From IMG/VR virus record IMGVR_UViG_3300001450_000044, positions 22,637-48,701 of that record: a stretch of DNA of 26,065 nt, one strand, 5' to 3'. Source of the DNA: a virus. Below, piece after piece: positions 5,489 through 25,494 of this stretch. Numbering within the stretch: position 1 is the stretch's first letter; each line of letters opens with the position of its first letter. A model generated the notes under the pieces. The model was not told the origin of the DNA and did not search any database. It worked only from the letters and a program-made list of their open reading frames with translations. A program made the position numbers and the translations under genes.

Positions 5489-6607
5489 ATGGCAGCTGAC
5501 GATACCGATTACACAAAATTTCCGATAACCGCAAGAGACACAATCTTTGAGGTTGGTGACAGTACATTTCAAGTTGAAAATAAATTTCCAATGACAGACA
5601 ACCCATACGGTAGTCGTCTTTCAAGTCAGATCGCACTCCCAATATCTGAAAGACAGAATACCAAGAATTATCATCTTCTTGGATTTGCTCCACAGCGAGC
5701 ACTACAAGCTGAAGATCTCAACGAAATCCAAGAACGTTTCATGGTAAATAATACGTTGACTCAGCAGATGTGGTCAAACTGGAATTCATTTAATAATATG
5801 CAAATGTGCGAGTTTGGTCCCGGTTGGTTTGGCACAACTCCATTACACCCATATGAATGGAAATCAAACATTCGTTACTTGGACGAGTTCATATATGCAC
5901 CCGGAAATGCTGATGATTTGATCTTTGAAAAACCCAAAAACTTAATTACTATTGATCATAAGGAATTTTTCGATAATGCGCCAGGTGGCGGATTTAGATC
6001 GAACTATACCATACAGCTAACTCTTAACCCAGGCTGGTATTATATCAATGATACGTACACAACATCATCAACTCACGACAGCTCTGGATTCAAGTATTGG
6101 TATTATCTTAAAGAAACAATACATTCAGAAGAAATTGTAGTTAATGTAACATACAGAATCGCGCCGTTCGGATACACGGTGACATCACCATCCCACCCAG
6201 AAGAAATTTATATTGAAAATAATGGTACTTGTGATGTACATGTAGAACTTCCATTTGGAATTATTTTAGATGATATTAACTATGTGTCTGGTGGTGAATT
6301 TCAATCAGGTGATTCTGACTCTGGTGCAGATCGAGTCGAAATAAAGATAAAACCAAAATTAGGATCTGGCACATCTTCTGATAGAACTCCATCATATATT
6401 GGATATGTTACATTCGAGACACCTTGCCCATTTCCTGGCTCGGGGGCTACTGTTGGGTTTATACGAGCGAAATACCTTAACAACGTAGCTCTAGATATAT
6501 CTTCTCTTAATAGGGTAGATGGTATCGACTTAGATACAACGGGAGCGAGTAATCAGGAGAATTACGAAAACACAATCCTTCCTGATGCAACCACGGAGTT
6601 TATCTGA
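5489..6607 (+). CDS. baseplate/tail adaptor structural protein, paralogue 1
   Basis: 372 residues; no T4 protein is recognised by sequence. It shares a clear N-terminal module with the following gene: residues 58-121 (TKNYHLLGFAPQRALQAEDL, then ER, NNTLTQQMWSNW, FGPGWFGTTPLHPYEW) match residues 39-113 of the neighbour. Further shared segments are NPGWYYIN at about 179, GFKYWYYL at about 200 and a V-x-Y-R segment. The C-terminal third (from about 240) is a separate β-rich part. The position between gp8 and the fibres is that of T4 genes 9-11, so a role as a peripheral baseplate or fibre-attachment protein is plausible but inferred. It starts one base after the gp8 stop with an AAAGG site, and its stop overlaps the next ATG (TGATG). 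Confidence 0.75.
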   Translation: MAADDTDYTKFPITARDTIFEVGDSTFQVENKFPMTDNPYGSRLSSQIALPISERQNTKNYHLLGFAPQRALQAEDLNEIQERFMVNNTLTQQMWSNWNSFNNMQMCEFGPGWFGTTPLHPYEWKSNIRYLDEFIYAPGNADDLIFEKPKNLITIDHKEFFDNAPGGGFRSNYTIQLTLNPGWYYINDTYTTSSTHDSSGFKYWYYLKETIHSEEIVVNVTYRIAPFGYTVTSPSHPEEIYIENNGTCDVHVELPFGIILDDINYVSGGEFQSGDSDSGADRVEIKIKPKLGSGTSSDRTPSYIGYVTFETPCPFPGSGATVGFIRAKYLNNVALDISSLNRVDGIDLDTTGASNQENYENTILPDATTEFI

Positions 6608-18592: not shown

Positions 18593-19105
18593 ATGACAGA
18601 ATCTAGACTCTCGACATTTATTAATGAATTTAGAGGTGGTAACCGTGCGCACCGCTATGAAATTAGCGGATCAATTGGTGGCAATAATGATTTAAATAAA
18701 TTTTTTGTGAGAGCGGTTAGTTTACCTCCATCACAAATTAATGAAATTAGAATTCCATATAGAGGTAGAATTTTAAAGTGGCCAGGTGATAGAGTATATC
18801 AACCGTGGACAATCAGAATTCTAGATGAAAACGGATCCAATAATTTATGGAAAGCTTTCCATGATTGGAGTGATGATATCAACAGTCACATTGAAAACAA
18901 TAATGAACTAAATGTACTTGAAGATTTCACTAAAGATTGGATCATCAAACAGGTTGATGAGAATGAAGATACGATGAAAGAAATCAACTTAATTGGATGT
19001 TGGCCAAACTTAATTGGACCAATAGACATGGATGCAAATGCTGTTGATACTTTAGTGGAATTTAACGTAGTTGTAAATTATCAATATTATGAAGTAACTA
19101 AGTGA
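18593..19105 (+). CDS. gp19: tail tube protein gp19
   Basis: 170 residues (T4 gp19: 163). It polymerises into the inner tail tube. The pattern of T4 gp19 is present: an N-terminal helix, RYEISGSIGGNNDLNKF, VRAVSLPPSQI, IPYRGRILKWPGDRVYQPWT (T4 NRKINVAGDRTFDDWT), FHDWSDDIN, MKEINLIGCWP (T4 TKEIEIKGLWP) and VEFNVVVNYQYYE (T4 TFEVTLALDYWE). It lies directly after the sheath gene with TAGGAG upstream, the usual order. Single intact copy. Confidence 0.93.
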   Translation: MTESRLSTFINEFRGGNRAHRYEISGSIGGNNDLNKFFVRAVSLPPSQINEIRIPYRGRILKWPGDRVYQPWTIRILDENGSNNLWKAFHDWSDDINSHIENNNELNVLEDFTKDWIIKQVDENEDTMKEINLIGCWPNLIGPIDMDANAVDTLVEFNVVVNYQYYEVTK

Positions 19106-19118
19106 ATAGGAGTATATT

Positions 19119-20660
19119 ATGGCATTAGACTTATTTGGTTTTACAATAGGAAAGAAGTCTAAGGGTGAAGTAAAGACAGAAGCACTAAAGCAAGAATCTT
19201 TTGTCTCCCCTGACGAATATGATGGTTCGTATAATTTTGAAAGCGGTGGTGTCTTTGGGACATACGTCGATTTTTCTGGTGCAGTAAAGGATGAAAATTC
19301 CGCACTTTCGATGTACAGAACTATGGCACTTTATCCCGAAGTAGATTCTGCTATTGAGGATATTGTAAATGAAGCTATAGTTATTGATGAAGATCGAAGA
19401 CCAATAAAATTGGATTTGGATCGTGTTGATATATCAGAAACAATAAAAAATAAGATATATGAAGAGTTCAATACAATACTCAAGCTTTTAGATTTTGGTA
19501 AAAAATCACATGAACTTTTTAGACGTTGGTATATTGATTCTAAATTGTTTTATCATATTGTAATAGACAAAACAGACCCAAGAAGAGGTATACAAGATCT
19601 AAGAGCAATCGATCCCCTGAACATCAAGAAGGTGAAAAAGGTACAGAAGGATAAGGAAGTACTTGGAACAGCAAAAGTTCCTATGGTAACCGGTGTTAAT
19701 GAATTTTTTGTATACACAAACACCGATAAGCAATCTTCATATCAAACCCCATCTACCGGAATTAAGATAAGCACAGATTCAATCTGCTATTGTCACTCCG
19801 GAATAATTGATGCCAATTCAAAACGAGTTGTTGGTTACCTACAAAAAGCAATTAGACCATTAAACATGCTTCGTCAAATTGAAGACGCAGTTGTAGTCTA
19901 TAGAATTTCAAGAGCACCTGAACGAAGAATTTTCTACATTGATGTTGGTAACTTACCAAAACAAAAAGCAGAGCAATACCTAAGATCACTAATGAACAGG
20001 TATAGAAGTAAACTAGTATATAATCAGAGTACCGGTGAAGTTAGAGATGATAGACGGCACATGTCGATGTTAGAGGATTACTGGTTACCACGAAGAGAGG
20101 GTGGTAGAGGAACTGAAATTTCAACTCTACCAGGCGGACAGAATCTAGGTGAAATGACAGACGTTGAATATTTACTTAGAAAAGTATACAATTCCCTGAA
20201 TGTTCCAATTACTCGAATGATGCCACAGGATGGATTCAACTTGGGTAGATCAGCAGAAATAACCAGAGATGAAGTTACTTTCTTCAAATTCATCGAAAGA
20301 CTCAGAATGAAATTTTCTTTGATGTTTCTACAGCTCCTTCGGGTTCAATTGATTCTAAAAGGAGTCATGACTGAAGATGAATGGAATAGTATCCAAAGTG
20401 ATGTATTCTTTGTGTTTGCAAAAGACTCGCACTTCAGTGAACTGAAAGAAGCTGAAATATTAAGAAACAGAATAGATATGGCAGCAGCACTTGAACCATT
20501 GGTTGGAAAGTACTATTCTACACGTTATATTCGTAAAAGTATACTAAAACAGACCGAAGAAGAAATTCGTATTATAGATACTGAGAACATGGCAGAATTA
20601 GCTAGTCAACCACCACAGCAAATGTTACCACCAGGTCAGGAACCGGGAATGATTCAATGA
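19119..20660 (+). CDS. gp20: portal vertex protein gp20
   Basis: 513 residues (T4 gp20: 524). The dodecameric portal starts prohead assembly and is the DNA channel. The family segments are clear: YRTMALYPEVDSAIEDIVNE (about 65-84), FRRWYIDSKLFYHIVIDK, RDLRAIDPLNIKK, RQIEDAVVVYRISRAPERRI, RSKLVYNQSTGEVRDDRRHM, EDYWLPRREGGRGTEISTLP and VPITRM. The C-terminus is low-complexity and Pro/Gln-rich. The ribosome site TAGGAG is at about 19104-19109. Its end overlaps the next gene by four bases (ATGA). Confidence 0.95.
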   Translation: MALDLFGFTIGKKSKGEVKTEALKQESFVSPDEYDGSYNFESGGVFGTYVDFSGAVKDENSALSMYRTMALYPEVDSAIEDIVNEAIVIDEDRRPIKLDLDRVDISETIKNKIYEEFNTILKLLDFGKKSHELFRRWYIDSKLFYHIVIDKTDPRRGIQDLRAIDPLNIKKVKKVQKDKEVLGTAKVPMVTGVNEFFVYTNTDKQSSYQTPSTGIKISTDSICYCHSGIIDANSKRVVGYLQKAIRPLNMLRQIEDAVVVYRISRAPERRIFYIDVGNLPKQKAEQYLRSLMNRYRSKLVYNQSTGEVRDDRRHMSMLEDYWLPRREGGRGTEISTLPGGQNLGEMTDVEYLLRKVYNSLNVPITRMMPQDGFNLGRSAEITRDEVTFFKFIERLRMKFSLMFLQLLRVQLILKGVMTEDEWNSIQSDVFFVFAKDSHFSELKEAEILRNRIDMAAALEPLVGKYYSTRYIRKSILKQTEEEIRIIDTENMAELASQPPQQMLPPGQEPGMIQ

Positions 20661-21094
20661 ATTCTATAATAGGCAAAATTTTATCTTGTGTTATAAAAGA
20701 AGACAAAGAGAGTTTTAGCTCTCTACTTCGTGATGAAATTGCTGGTAGAATTCAGTCAGAAAGAAAGACTAGAATTCCGGATACAATTGAAGATGAAATT
20801 TTTTCGCCTAAAAATCATCAAACACTAAATATTAGTGAAGAACAATATAAAGATTCAATTAAATTTATTCCAATTTTAAATGAACTTGCAAATAAAAAGG
20901 GTAATATTAGCGTAGTTTTTTCAGATGACAGCGAAGCCATAGTCACATCAAGTGAAGTAGATAGCTTAATTAAATTACACGATTCTTTAAATGAAGAGAA
21001 TCAAGTAATATTAAGATCATCGTTGGTTAGAAGTAAAGAATCATATAAAAGTTGCTCTAATTTTGCAAAGAAATATACCACAAAGAAAGGTTAG
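20657..21094 (+). CDS. probable prohead core protein (between gp20 and gp21)
   Basis: 145 charged residues, mostly helical by appearance, with mixed acidic and basic segments and a Lys-rich C-terminus (SNFAKKYTTKKG). No conserved domain is recognised. It overlaps the gp20 stop by four bases and so is translationally coupled to the portal. In T4 the genes in this position are the minor core proteins 67 and 68 (gp68 is 141 residues), and the length fits gp68. Short LxE- or IxE-type matches (IPILNE at about 71-76; ISE at 59-61) would suit the prohead protease. The function is inferred from position rather than from sequence similarity. Confidence 0.65.
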   Translation: MNSIIGKILSCVIKEDKESFSSLLRDEIAGRIQSERKTRIPDTIEDEIFSPKNHQTLNISEEQYKDSIKFIPILNELANKKGNISVVFSDDSEAIVTSSEVDSLIKLHDSLNEENQVILRSSLVRSKESYKSCSNFAKKYTTKKG

Positions 21095-21101
21095 AAGATA
21101 A

Positions 21102-21629
21102 ATGTCCAAATCTTTAAACATAATCCAAAGTATCATCGATGAAAACCTCATTGATGCCAAAAGAGAAACTCAAGCATATCTCAATGATATTCTATCCGAG
21201 TCACTCAACGAAAAATTCCAAGAAATTGCTCCAACCATCATTGGTGAAGAAAAAAGAAAAAAAGGTACTTACCGTAAAAAAGGTAAAAAGCACTCATGTG
21301 CAACTCACGCAGAACACGCCGAATGGGGTGAAGGAACTTGCATTAGTGAGAGTCATGCCAATCCAGATGAAAATGGTTTCGTCTCTTGGTATGACGTTGA
21401 GTTTGAACATGGTGTAGAAAGACGAGTTCCCACAGAGGATCTTAATATTCTAGGCGAATCAATGCATGAACATACTGAAAATTCAGAAGGTGATACCTTA
21501 TCAGAAAAACTGGATCGAGTCGGTAAAGAAGATGAAGACGTTGATAACGACGGCGATAAAGATTCTTCGGACGAATACCTTGCTAAAAGAAGAAAAGTCA
21601 TTGGTAAAGCAATGAAAACGAGAGGGTAA
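21102..21629 (+). CDS. prohead core-type protein with small conserved domain and EF-hand-like loop
   Basis: 175 residues in three parts. Residues 1-50 are a helical, core-like segment with LSE at 31-33. Residues 64-117 form a compact domain (HSCATHAEHAEWGEGTC, then HANPDENGFVSWYDVEFEHG, VERRVPTEDLNIL), a pattern I recall from several proteins of marine T4-like phages. Residues 146-157 are DVDNDGDKDSSD, an EF-hand/dockerin-type loop with Asp at positions 1, 3, 5, 7, 9 and 12, followed by a basic helix. T4 has gp67 and gp68 at this site but neither has this make-up as far as I know. It is probably co-assembled inside the prohead and possibly cut by gp21; calcium binding is suggested by the loop only. 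Confidence 0.65.
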   Translation: MSKSLNIIQSIIDENLIDAKRETQAYLNDILSESLNEKFQEIAPTIIGEEKRKKGTYRKKGKKHSCATHAEHAEWGEGTCISESHANPDENGFVSWYDVEFEHGVERRVPTEDLNILGESMHEHTENSEGDTLSEKLDRVGKEDEDVDNDGDKDSSDEYLAKRRKVIGKAMKTRG

Positions 21630-21633
21630 TCCA

Positions 21634-22281
21634 ATGAAATTAATCACGGAAATGAACGAAGACGTTCAGTTGATCACGGAAAAGCGTGAAGATGGAACCA
21701 AGGAGTTTTATATCCGTGGTAATTTCATGCAAGCAGGTGTAAAAAATAGGAATGGTAGAATATATGATAGAGATGTTCTAGGACCTGCTGTTGGTAAATA
21801 TATGACCGAGTATGTTGAAAAAAATAGAGCACTCGGTGAGTTAAACCACCCCACTGGACCAACCGTCAATTTAGACAGAGTTTCACATATCATCAAAGAA
21901 ATGAACGCTGATGGTAACAACTTTGTTGGTAAAGCCAAAATTCTAAACACCCCAATGGGTAAAATCGTACAAAATTTAATCGAAGAAGGTGCTTGTTTAG
22001 GAGTATCTTCTCGTGGTATGGGATCACTTAAGAAAAATAGTGAAGGTATAAATGAAGTACAAAAAGATTTTATCTTATCTGCGGTAGACATTGTAGCTGA
22101 TCCATCTGCCCCCGATGCTTTCGTTGACGGTATCATGGAAGGTAGAGAATGGATTTGGGACAATGGTGTTATTCGTGAAAAACAAATTGCACATTATGAA
22201 CAAGTGATAAAAGAATCCAACAGACAAAATTTAGAAGAAAATGCAATCCGGGTATTCAAAGATTTCATTTCTAAATTATAA
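21634..22281 (+). CDS. gp21: prohead core protease gp21
   Basis: 215 residues (T4 gp21: 212). It is the serine protease that matures the prohead by cutting scaffold and capsid proteins after (L/I)-x-E. The active-site motifs match T4: GELNHP with H72 (T4 H85) and GVSSRG with S125 (T4 S140). FMQAGVKNRNGRIYDRDVLG and SAVDIVADPSAPDAFVDGIM are also family features. The N-terminus contains two I-T-E matches (residues 4-6 and 14-16) that could be self-processing sites; this is inferred. It starts four bases after the preceding stop with GAGGG upstream, and ends 43 bases before gp22. Confidence 0.94.
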   Translation: MKLITEMNEDVQLITEKREDGTKEFYIRGNFMQAGVKNRNGRIYDRDVLGPAVGKYMTEYVEKNRALGELNHPTGPTVNLDRVSHIIKEMNADGNNFVGKAKILNTPMGKIVQNLIEEGACLGVSSRGMGSLKKNSEGINEVQKDFILSAVDIVADPSAPDAFVDGIMEGREWIWDNGVIREKQIAHYEQVIKESNRQNLEENAIRVFKDFISKL

Positions 22282-22324: not shown

Positions 22325-23296
22325 ATGGAAGATCAAACAGACATGGCCTCAGATAAAACTGAGGATAAGAAAAAGAGTAAAAAAGAAGTTATCTCCACTA
22401 AACGGCAAGGCGGAGATTTAGTCCGTGATGCATTAGGTGGTGGTGCTCATGATGCAGAGGGTAAAGGAACTATCCTACAGACCCTAGAGCCTGTTGCAAA
22501 TGCACAAGCTGCTGTTAACATGGCATCGATTGCAACCCCAAAAATGGAAAGTGCCGATGTCGATGAGTGCATGGGAGCACTTTTCTCAGATGAAACTTTA
22601 TCTGAAGAATTTGCATCTAAAGTTCGTGTTATCTTTGAAGCAGCAGTAAATGCAAAAATCGAAGATTATTCGAATGAAATTCACGAATCATATGATGAAG
22701 TAATCAAAGAGCAAATGGTTGATGTGGTTTCAAACCTATCAGAAAAGCTTGATGATTATCTAAACTACGTTGTCACTGAGTGGATGGAAGAAAATGAATT
22801 GGCAGTCGAACGAGGTGTCAAGTCTGATATTGCGGAAAGCTTTATCGATGGAATCAAGTCACTGTTCGAAAATCATTACATTGATGTACCAAATGAAAGA
22901 TACGATGTTTTAGATGAACTATTCGAAGCAAATGAACAATTACAGAATCAACTCAACGAACAGATCGAAAAGAATGTTGATCTATTCAATGAATTGACAT
23001 CTGCAAGAGCACAGGAAATTTTCTCTGAGTCAACTCAGGATCTAACTGATACTCAGAAAGAAAAATTCATTGATCTTGCAAAGAACGTTGCCTACGAAGA
23101 TGAACAATCATTCGCAGGAAAACTACATGCCCTTAAGGAAAATTATTTCCCAATCCAACCAGAGGGTATTTTAACCGAATCAGTTGATACTATGTTAGAG
23201 GAAGGTACTACACCAGTAACTTTCAATGATTCATCTATGAATGCATATGTAAATCATCTAGCTAATCAAATGAAACATCAAAAGAAATCAGATTAA
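22325..23296 (+). CDS. gp22: prohead scaffold protein gp22
   Basis: 323 residues (T4 gp22: 269). It is the main internal scaffold, removed by gp21 during head maturation. The sequence is almost entirely charged and helical, with long acidic segments and coiled-coil-like heptads around residues 195-225 (LDELFEANEQLQNQLNEQIE). Protease-type L-x-E/I-x-E sites are frequent, for example LSE at 92-94 and IFE at 103-105. The N-terminal 50 residues are Lys/Glu-rich, then a Gly/Ala-rich stretch. It precedes gp23 by 25 bases as in T4 and has AAGGAG upstream. Confidence 0.92.
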   Translation: MEDQTDMASDKTEDKKKSKKEVISTKRQGGDLVRDALGGGAHDAEGKGTILQTLEPVANAQAAVNMASIATPKMESADVDECMGALFSDETLSEEFASKVRVIFEAAVNAKIEDYSNEIHESYDEVIKEQMVDVVSNLSEKLDDYLNYVVTEWMEENELAVERGVKSDIAESFIDGIKSLFENHYIDVPNERYDVLDELFEANEQLQNQLNEQIEKNVDLFNELTSARAQEIFSESTQDLTDTQKEKFIDLAKNVAYEDEQSFAGKLHALKENYFPIQPEGILTESVDTMLEEGTTPVTFNDSSMNAYVNHLANQMKHQKKSD

Positions 23297-23321: not shown

Positions 23322-24836
23322 ATGTCTAATTTTGATACTACTACACCCTTTGACTCATTATGTGAGAAGTGGGAACCACTTCTAGAGCATGATAGCGTCG
23401 AAGCAATTTCAGATCCCTATCGTAAGAAGGTTACCGCAGCTCTACTTGAAAACCAAGAAAGAGCAATCAATGAGCAGAATCTAAGCGAAGCTGCTCCAAC
23501 TAACAGCATGGGTGCTGGTGCTTTCGGTTATACCGATGGTGGCGGCGTTCCTAGTTCCAGATCGACTGCCCTTCAGGGTTACGATCCCATTCTCATCAGC
23601 CTCGTCCGTCGTGCTATGCCAAACCTAATGGCTTACGATCTTGCTGGTGTTCAGCCCATGAGCGCACCTACCGGACTCATCTTTGCGATGAGATCTCGTT
23701 ACGGTAAGGCTCGTGGACAAGCCGGTAGTGCACAAAACGAAGCACTCTTCCAAGAACCATTCGCAGTGTTCTCGGGTGGTGGTACTGGTACCACTGCTGG
23801 ACAACCTTCTGCTGGTTATGGTAAGACTGGTGGAATTCATCAGACCGACGATCAACGAGGTGACAACGGTGGACCTACCGCAGCAAACTCTGCTGCTACT
23901 GGTGTTAAGCCCATCCTCAACGATGGTACTCGCGGTCAGGACTTCTCTTCTCAGAACTTTGAAATGTTCAGAGGTATGCTTACCAACGCTGGTGAAGCAC
24001 TTGGTTCATCCAGTAACCCAGAGTTTGCTGAAATGAACTTCACCATTGAAAGAATCGCTGTTGAAGCAAGAACTCGCGCCCTCAAGGCAGAGTACACCAC
24101 TGAACTCGCTCAGGATCTCCGAGCAGTCCATGGTCTCGACGCTGAAACTGAACTTGCTAACATTCTTAGCACTGAGATTCTTTCTGAGATCAACCGTGAA
24201 CTCATTCGTACTCTCTACTACAAGGCTAAGGTTGGATGTCAGCAGAACGACATTAACGGTTCAGGTATTTATGACCTAAACATAGATTCCGATGGTCGTT
24301 GGAGTGCAGAACGCTTCCGTGGACTCATGTTCCAGATTGAGCGTGAATGTAACACCATCGCTAAGGAAACTCGTCGTGGTAAGGGTAACTTCATCGTCGT
24401 TTCCGCCGATGTCGCAAGTGCTCTCGCAATGGGTGGTTTCCTCAACATCTCACCTGCAATCAACCAGCAGCTAGAAGTTGATGACACCGGTAACACCTTC
24501 GCAGGTATCCTCAATGGTAGAATTAGAGTCTACATTGATCCCTACGCAGCAACTGACTCAATCACTGATACCAACTTTGCTAACTTCTGCCTAGTTGGTT
24601 ACAAGGGAACCAGTCCATATGACGCAGGTGTATTCTACTGCCCATACGTTCCCCTCCAGATGGTGAGAGCGGTTGATACCGGTAGCTTCCAGCCCAAGAT
24701 CGGGTTTAAGACCCGCTACGGCATGGTTAGCAACCCATTCGCAGAAACTGTGGATATTGCTCAGTCTGGTGGTAACCAGTACTACAGACTCTTCGCAGTC
24801 AAGAACCTCCACGGTAACACTGGTTTCGGACTCTGA
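23322..24836 (+). CDS. gp23: major capsid protein gp23
   Basis: 504 residues (T4 gp23: 521). It forms the hexamers of the icosahedral head with an HK97-type fold. Characteristic segments are DPILISLVRRAMPNLMAYDL, GVQPMSAPTGLIFAMRSRYG, RALKAEYTTELAQDLRAVHG and YKGTSPYDAGVFYCPYVPLQ. A propeptide is expected: L54-S-E56 followed by AAPTNSMGAG is a good gp21 site. The ribosome site AAGGAGA at about 23307-23313 is strong. The gene is richer in G/C-ending codons than its neighbours: one 60-base line (24061) contains 33 G/C and a line in gp21 (21961) contains 21. That fits the most abundant phage protein. The 3' end is followed by a strong terminator. Confidence 0.97.
   Translation: MSNFDTTTPFDSLCEKWEPLLEHDSVEAISDPYRKKVTAALLENQERAINEQNLSEAAPTNSMGAGAFGYTDGGGVPSSRSTALQGYDPILISLVRRAMPNLMAYDLAGVQPMSAPTGLIFAMRSRYGKARGQAGSAQNEALFQEPFAVFSGGGTGTTAGQPSAGYGKTGGIHQTDDQRGDNGGPTAANSAATGVKPILNDGTRGQDFSSQNFEMFRGMLTNAGEALGSSSNPEFAEMNFTIERIAVEARTRALKAEYTTELAQDLRAVHGLDAETELANILSTEILSEINRELIRTLYYKAKVGCQQNDINGSGIYDLNIDSDGRWSAERFRGLMFQIERECNTIAKETRRGKGNFIVVSADVASALAMGGFLNISPAINQQLEVDDTGNTFAGILNGRIRVYIDPYAATDSITDTNFANFCLVGYKGTSPYDAGVFYCPYVPLQMVRAVDTGSFQPKIGFKTRYGMVSNPFAETVDIAQSGGNQYYRLFAVKNLHGNTGFGL
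23481..23489 (+). other. likely gp21 protease cleavage site in gp23
   Basis: The codons for L54-S55-E56 precede A57, giving a propeptide of 56 residues. T4 gp23 is cut after residue 65 with the same L/I-x-E pattern, and the mature protein here would start AAPTNSMGAG. The site is inferred from the motif and position. Confidence 0.65.
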
Positions 24837-24933: not shown

Positions 24934-25494
24934 ATGCCCCTAACAGGACCAGCCGAACTTCTTCATAGTTCAGACATAAGAAAGCCCAGTACAAATAATT
25001 ACTTAGCTACGAATTATTTTCAGTTTGTTTTAGGTAGAGCACCGCTATTGACATATTTCTGTCAATCTGTTAATCTACCATCATTAACAATTGGATTTGC
25101 TGATGTCCCAGTAGCGGGTATCGGTGTTCCGTTTAGAAATCCTGTAGGAAGATACTCATACGAACAAATGACAGTTTCATTTATTGTAGACGAAGAAATG
25201 AAAAACTGGAGAGAAATACACGATTGGATGCGATCGTTAAGTACAGCAGAATCAATGGGAAACCAAAAAGATGCTGAGGTGATTCCACACGAAGAAAAAT
25301 TCGATACGGCAACTTTAATTATAATGAATAGCGCATACCAACCAAATATTAGAGTTACGGTAAATGAACTCTTTCCTGTAGGTATCAGCGGAATTCAATT
25401 TTCATCGGTATCGGTTGATACCGAACCAGTCGTGGCTACAGCCACCTTTGCATACACTTCTTATAAGGTAGAAGATATATCAAATGAATCTTAA
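24934..25494 (+). CDS. gp3: tail completion/tube terminator protein gp3
   Basis: 186 residues (T4 gp3: 176). In T4, gp3 ends the tail tube at its proximal tip and lets gp15 bind. Matches to T4 gp3 as I recall it: SVNLPSLTIGFADVPVAGIG (T4 SVPIPGI), then RYSYEQMTVSFIVDEEMKNW and IHDWM (T4 FEYDPLIVRFIVDEELKSWIGMYEWM), and PVVATATFAYTSYKVEDIS (T4 PALVCTATIPYTYFQVE). gp54 was considered because of a related domain, but length and these segments fit gp3 better. It lies between gp23 and uvsY, the position in T4-like cyanophages, where T4 itself has gp24. Confidence 0.82.
   Translation: MPLTGPAELLHSSDIRKPSTNNYLATNYFQFVLGRAPLLTYFCQSVNLPSLTIGFADVPVAGIGVPFRNPVGRYSYEQMTVSFIVDEEMKNWREIHDWMRSLSTAESMGNQKDAEVIPHEEKFDTATLIIMNSAYQPNIRVTVNELFPVGISGIQFSSVSVDTEPVVATATFAYTSYKVEDISNES

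Follow-up and report, generated by a model that had tools for sequence, protein, structure and literature searches.

A predicted gp67-type prohead core protein of a marine T4-like phage with a barrel and an acidic-loop module as candidate cargo

The 26,065-nucleotide window analysed here comes from positions 22,637 to 48,701 of the IMG/VR virus record IMGVR_UViG_3300001450_000044, which spans 56 kb and belongs to a T4-like marine phage. It contains a T4-like structural cluster comprising tail sheath, tube, gp20, a 145-residue protein, the focal protein, gp21, gp22 and gp23, as well as a second tail-tube-like protein and UvsY. The two tail-tube-like proteins (18593-19105 and 24934-25494) both match PHROG 45, and the second follows gp23. 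The focal gene occupies a slot with gp20 on one side and gp21 on the other, followed by gp22 and gp23; the T4 gene order is 20-67-68-21. The features of this region are:

19119..20660, plus strand: gp20 portal
20657..21094, plus strand: 145-residue neighbour protein, whose family profile also matches the gp67 profile
21102..21629, plus strand: focal coding sequence, ATG start, 175 residues, with a predicted gp67-type core module, an SH3/Tudor-like barrel and an Asp-loop module
21102..21251, plus strand: N module, residues 1-50, gp67-like by hhalign against the gp67 profile, modelled by AlphaFold2
21237..21248, plus strand: IIGE, residues 46-49, predicted gp21 cut ending the core module, equivalent to T4 gp67 FLIE46
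21279..21476, plus strand: barrel domain, residues 60-125, modelled by AlphaFold2, SH3/Tudor-like, common to other phage proteins
21447..21458, plus strand: ILGE, residues 116-119, a further (L/I)xE in the last predicted barrel strand
21495..21506, plus strand: TLSE, residues 132-135, where gp21 is predicted to cut just ahead of the Asp-loop module; the linker around it has low confidence
21507..21626, plus strand: Asp-loop module, residues 136-175 (40 residues), an acidic loop and then a basic helix, 156-174
21537..21572, plus strand: 12-residue loop DVDNDGDKDSSD, residues 146-157, a possible Ca2+ site in the style of a dockerin or F-hand
21634..22281, plus strand: gp21 head maturation protease, the proposed processing enzyme
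22325..23296, plus strand: gp22 scaffold, rich in (L/I)xE
23481..23489, plus strand: LSE, residues 54-56 of the window gp23, where LSE-A aligns with the T4 gp23 cut LTE65-A

The open reading frame lies exactly where the original prediction had placed it, with WGEGTC at residues 75-80 and WYDV at 96-99. Since the frame is conserved in other IMG/VR contigs (L006-L012, the seven best of 305 relatives, 48-100% identity), it represents a real gene. A Pfam search with the focal protein returned no family at E up to 1, nor at E up to 10, and the profile of its alignment gave no match to PDB sequences at E up to 1. The AlphaFold2 model has a mean pLDDT of 70.7 and a pTM of 0.34; confidence is low for residues 48-60 and most of 125-154, and the relative placement of the parts is unreliable.

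Relatives were taken as the best 80 of 305 in the focal-protein search, and as 80 of 360 and 80 of at least 600 in two further searches. Of 80 gp21 loci in each set, 69 (set A) and 76 (set B) also carried gp20 and entered the census; a gp21-adjacent ORF was kept from 65 of the 69 and a slot ORF from 69 of the 76. Four loci with a different ORF next to gp21 (L145, L151, L152 and L153) were left out before profile building; in these, an unrelated 125-residue ORF rather than the gp67-like one adjoins gp21 in the gp20-gp21 slot. N-terminal extensions were trimmed from L100, L106, L108, L114, L132, L133, L137, L169 and L013, and from rows starting VSVKGEHM or LSVKGEQM.

AlphaFold2 predicts the N module as a long helix (residues 3-42) followed by a short one (44-50). 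Profiles were compared by hhalign with a reference profile of ten gp67 sequences, using 100 column-shuffled and reversed profiles as controls. The two versions of the focal-family profile matched it gap-free over 47 columns with probabilities of 54-67, and none of the 100 shuffles did as well. Four profiles (the two focal versions, the upstream-gene family and the cyanophage-type slot family) scored 23-26 with probabilities of 54-73, against control maxima of 16.5 (column-shuffled) and 12.2 (reversed); all the probabilities are below 75, the range of a remote match. The upstream-gene and focal families match each other at probabilities of 93-95, and ORFs of both types, judged by place and length, are present in 43 of the 69 set A loci. 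Relative L023 matches PHROG 1064 'prohead' (E 0.0069), while the 55-residue N module of the focal protein gave no match to this gp67 family model at E up to 1. The 145-residue neighbour (20657-21094) is a member of a second family resembling gp67, which has an additional C-terminal part; it weakly matches PHROG 4187 (E 0.00049), and tblastn against phages gave no match for it at E up to 0.1.

Remote homology and position make the helical start a divergent core module of the gp67 type, with a predicted function. The protein had been proposed to be of prohead core type with an added domain, and the gp20-gp21 slot, the gp67 profile match and the protease-motif enrichment described below support this. 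T4-type gp67 also matches the cyanophage slot family PHROG 683 (E 0.0023). All cyanophage genomes are said to lack gp67 and gp68 in a statement in PMC2984593, which is contradicted by the match of the cyanophage-type slot family to gp67. Because both the focal slot profile and that of 65 distinct cyanophage-type slot proteins beat all shuffles, core proteins of the gp67 type appear to be a general feature of marine T4-like phages. In the relevant passage of PMC9004378, 'gp67' denotes an unrelated gene, and no passage on gp67 or gp21 was found in PMC3012670.

The N module, barrel and loop module occur separately in IMG/VR among the best 80 of 305 relatives, and in these the N module was found only beside gp20 and/or gp21. 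It is joined to the barrel alone in L013, L023 and L024, to barrel and loop in L006-L008, L011 and L012, and to other tails in L063, L064, L065, L068, L071, L072 and L080. Other recurring cassettes are seen on slot proteins (L163:701-1459, L148:2540-3001, L160:2672-3001 and L172:2561-3001), several of them preceded by ELDE, QLDE or QIDE. Proteins in the same place range from 52 to 252 residues with unrelated tails, and in its minimal form (L083, 57 residues) the N module is nearly alone. Such variability would be expected if the tail were disposable filler, any soluble charged tail being tolerated and modules drifting between genes without a specific job. The barrel argues against this, with 6 invariant and 10 nearly invariant columns across 24 sequences, as do the conservation of the loop-module protein over largely diverged synonymous sites and the single profile match per record on different carriers, both described below; the filler reading is judged improbable. 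The barrel is predicted to be five-stranded. Structure searches with it gave weak SH3/Tudor matches, and the lack of a stronger one is uninformative.

The loop module was followed by profile searches because tblastn of phages with the module alone gave no match, probably owing to the BLAST low-complexity filter. The six aspartates of DVDNDGDKDSSD stand at loop positions 1, 3, 5, 7, 9 and 12. Of 52 non-redundant proteins encoded beside gp21, 19 have the full 12-residue pattern (18 of the 37 from gp21-chosen loci and 1 of the 15 found via focal similarity), whereas 1000 shuffles of the tails gave 0.05 such proteins on average and never more than 1. It is absent from 53 non-redundant cyanophage-type slot proteins and from 29 upstream-gene proteins. 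Between the window and unrelated genes, the module has 89% protein identity, while third positions at identical residues agree in only 28-47%. This combination points to old divergence under strong selection on the protein. Recent transfer of the module was considered and rejected, as third positions are largely diverged at identical residues.

An EF-hand pattern of the PROSITE type expects a hydrophobic residue at loop position 8. The loop had been described as a perfect six-Asp, EF-hand-like loop. The acidic ligands at positions 1, 3, 5 and 12 and the glycine at position 6 agree with that description; a canonical EF-hand does not stand, given Lys153 at position 8, Glu158 at position 13 and the lack of a predicted entering helix, AlphaFold2 placing no helix between the barrel and residue 156 (pLDDT is below 50 at residues 125-149 and 151-154). 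The further suggestion that calcium controls assembly or release of the core drew no support from the present results, and calcium control by the loop is possible.

The strength of selection on the six-Asp loop could also be read as that of a structural core protein that is left uncut, in which the barrel and a Ca2+-stabilised loop would make permanent core or portal contacts and cleavage would deliver no cargo. Consistent with such a role, the close relatives L009 and L010 have the loop module swapped for a different cassette that keeps the 12-residue Asp loop, and Dockerin_1 weakly matches, below threshold, 3 of 37 relatives (the best at E 0.0044) but not the focal protein. On the other side, 26 of the 52 gp21-adjacent proteins have neither the full nor a loose form of the loop, and the protease motifs speak for cutting. 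An uncut core protein is given a low probability.

The cleavage consensus of gp21 is (L/I)xE. According to the T4 literature, the protease cuts after glutamate (PMC5694885) and degrades gp22, gp67 and gp68 (PMC9958956, PMC5694885), a degradation that also argues against an uncut core protein. In the same reviews the fragments presumably leave the prohead, which counts against the cargo reading. T4 gp23 loses 65 residues by a cut (PMC9958956), which falls at LTE65. The part of PMC9026906 that lists the T4 virion gives 139 copies of a 3.9 kDa gp67 fragment, from 341 prohead gp67, and no gp68; by these copy numbers, retention in T4 is partial. A cut of T4 gp67 after its last (L/I)xE, FLIE46, leaves 34 residues of 3.99 kDa, comparable to the reported 3.9 kDa.

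In the focal protein, IIGE49 immediately precedes the added domains and TLSE135 the loop module. The former adjoins the low-confidence stretch 48-60 and the latter falls within a low-confidence linker, positions that favour the proposed cuts. Two motifs, ISE83 and LGE119, sit inside predicted barrel strands and count against the cargo reading. When (L/I)xE was compared with composition shuffles in 25 window proteins, the strongest excess was found in gp21 (11 vs 3.0), gp22 (13 vs 5.1) and the focal protein (7 vs 3.0, P 0.018, a value that would fail correction for 25 proteins). An excess is also present in a non-core protein of the window (5489-6607; 7 vs 3.2, P 0.0245).

The motifs also tend to lie at module borders, which, like their enrichment, is unfavourable to the uncut alternative. 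Residues 44-58 contain [LIVMF]xE in 37 of 52 slot proteins and [LI]xE in 21 of 52; equal windows of the tails, 49 of which were long enough, contain [LIVMF]xE in 13.0 on average and 24 at most. Within eight residues upstream of the loop module, [LIV]xE is found in 25 of 42 distinct contexts (random mean 6.2, maximum 14 in 2000 draws) and [LIV]xD in 10 of 42, counts that are not independent trials because the contexts are related sequences. The same motif precedes the GLYANI cassette in 10 of 10 cases (random mean 1.3), the SPP cassette in 2 of 2 and another cassette in only 4 of 9.

The search for the domain in other phage proteins that had been proposed as a check was run, and both barrel and loop recur on different carriers: the gp67 slot, the gp22 scaffold and a protein encoded beside an NMNAT gene. 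In L059 (795 residues) and L060 (789 residues), a single ORF combines both modules with a C-terminal part similar to gp22 (for L059, PHROG 237 at E 5.5e-51 and T4_CASP at E 2.3e-44). The loop module is in the gene right after an NMNAT/cytidyltransferase gene in P-HM1, Syn9, S-SM1, S-SCSM1 and S-H38, that is, in 5 of the 9 named loop-module records, with Syn19, S-CAM3 and ACG-2014f unmapped; in S-PM2 the module is elsewhere and the post-NMNAT gene S-PM2p140 lacks it. For the barrel, the carrier is the gene immediately downstream of the NMNAT gene in P-SSM7 and the second gene downstream in S-ShM2. By profile search, 9 of 12 named records have the loop module and 5 of them have the barrel module or, as in S-CREM2, neither is present; among 28 IMG/VR records, hand-chosen, many because they bear a module, and mostly fragments, the counts are 11 and 12. 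S-CREM2 has neither module by this search. Each of the 20 records with the loop and each of the 17 with the barrel gave one profile match; outside the 28 records, one ORF of L084 has two loop-module matches.

The single loop-module match in S-SCSM1 (90301-90411) lies in SSCSM1_92, annotated 'virion protein'; MSE rather than [LIV]xE precedes the module there. The S-SCSM1 paper reports 45 virion proteins by mass spectrometry, and its authors note that some may be left over from CsCl purification. SSCSM1_92 is taken to be one of these 45, the mass spectrometry having assigned proteins and not the module. The idea that the domain ends up as an internal peptide after cleavage gains indirect support from this relative's protein with the same loop module, as well as from the T4 3.9 kDa gp67 fragment, which fits a cut at the site equivalent to IIGE49.

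Since the modules occur on core-slot proteins, on gp22 and on one protein with a virion annotation, they could alternatively be core-docking tags, which would attach to the scaffold and take the protein that bears them into the head without being cargo themselves. A general tag would be expected on several proteins per phage, whereas each module has one match per record; focal-type proteins already possess the gp67 module, and the cyanophage NMNATs have a T4-type capsid-targeting start instead. Docking tags are regarded as the least probable of the alternatives. The full start pattern, M..[FYW]..[FYW][LIV].E, is present in 7 of 9 cyanophage GC190-type NMNAT/cytidyltransferase proteins examined. 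The NMNATs with a T4-type capsid-targeting start ending in (L/I)xE-A are:

L264:18257-19420
L280:4820-6049
L253:8609-9469
L092:3165-4313
L003:2043-3221
L005:2656-3816
L004:1571-2698

The pattern agrees with the capsid-targeting positions 4, 7, 8 and 10 named in a section of a review (PMC9026906). T4 IPII and IPIII have it in full, and IPI keeps the two aromatics only. In the baseline it occurs in 3 of 119 ORFs, all three of them GC190-type proteins. T4-GC190 is reported as detected in S-SM1 virions (PMC3037559), the virion table of S-CREM2 includes ORFs 154, 155, 156 and 160 (PMC10665884), and an NMNAT-type protein is reported in the virion proteomes of S-SM1, S-SCSM1 and S-CREM2. Based on the capsid-targeting start and these proteome reports, cyanophage NMNAT probably enters the head and undergoes trimming by gp21. 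For the focal protein itself, a capsid-targeting sequence was considered and rejected, its start (MSKSLNIIQS) lacking the pattern. The shorter M..[FYW]..[FYW] is found in 7 of 31 cassette proteins whose starts are distinct, against 3 of 119 baseline ORFs, and the full pattern in none of the 31.

Taken together, the focal gene is best read as encoding a divergent gp67-type prohead core protein with conserved cargo modules as its tail, for which retention and release are argued from T4 by homology; this reading is considered reasonably probable. Since the same two pieces are found on other head proteins in related phages, the data suggest that barrel and loop are cargo freed inside the virus head. 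By homology, the long helix (residues ~1-50) would join the assembling core with gp22 and gp21. After shell assembly, gp21 would cut at (L/I)xE sites, chiefly behind IIGE49 and TLSE135; the helix would be broken up, and the barrel (50-135) and a 40-residue peptide of Asp loop and basic helix (136-175) would be set free. As with the T4 3.9 kDa gp67 fragment, the freed pieces would at least partly stay with the packaged DNA. More speculatively, a divalent cation is the probable ligand of the loop, and DNA or a head partner that of its basic helix, while the barrel may have a role in the next host once ejected; injection and any host target are a guess.

On this reading, the modules are passengers, riding on gp22 or on the NMNAT-adjacent protein in other marine T4-like phages. 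A broader proposal, doubtful as a whole, is that the Tudor-like barrel and the metal-loop/basic-helix peptide constitute mobile internal cargo, usually one per genome, that has moved between core carriers (gp67 slot, gp22 and the neighbour of the virion NMNAT), often beside protease sites; gp21 would then make core proteins the precursors of injected peptides, and RNA polymerase is an example of a host protein to which the barrel may bind. By placing conserved modules behind a protease site, a phage would have a simple means of filling its head with peptides, and abundant marine phages would allow a test of the old question of what enters the host with T4-like DNA. Among the titles and abstract openings listed, none dealt with loop-bearing core proteins, module shuffling in core proteins or cyanophage capsid targeting, and the terms 'prohead' and 'internal' are absent from PMC10684548.

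Several known systems resemble parts of this protein. The Tudor domain of UvrD binds RNA polymerase, and the C-terminal Tudor domain of PcrA/UvrD is among the nearest solved folds to the barrel (probability 0.96 for 7egt_B and 0.77 for 6yi2), at Foldseek E values of 0.14-0.2 and a VIA Z of at most 4.4, which other SH3/Tudor folds equal, both below the level of trust. Pfam PF21196, the PcrA/UvrD Tudor family, is weakly matched in 6 of 37 relatives (best E 0.011) and not in the focal protein, and the focal barrel, unlike that of PcrA/UvrD, lies outside any helicase context. Dockerin and F-hand calcium loops share the DxDxDGxxDxxD loop, with a helix behind it and no entering helix in front; the focal loop differs from dockerin in being single and in its lysine at position 8. 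T4 gp22, which gives rise to an internal fragment, is likewise a core protein dense in (L/I)xE; the family matches of the focal protein include none to the gp22 family (PHROG 237). T4 gp67 shares the portal/prohead-protease slot, a helical start of about 47 residues, an (L/I)xE at its end and a tail behind it. It is only 80 residues long with a purely acidic tail, in contrast to the predicted barrel and acidic-loop/basic-helix module of the focal tail, which are common to other proteins. Because that purely acidic, low-complexity tail is absent, the focal protein is classified as gp67-type and not as gp67. With T4 IPI-III and Alt it shares a proposed fate, delivery in the head beside the DNA; it differs in that its N-terminus has no capsid-targeting sequence, and delivery would proceed via the gp67 module.
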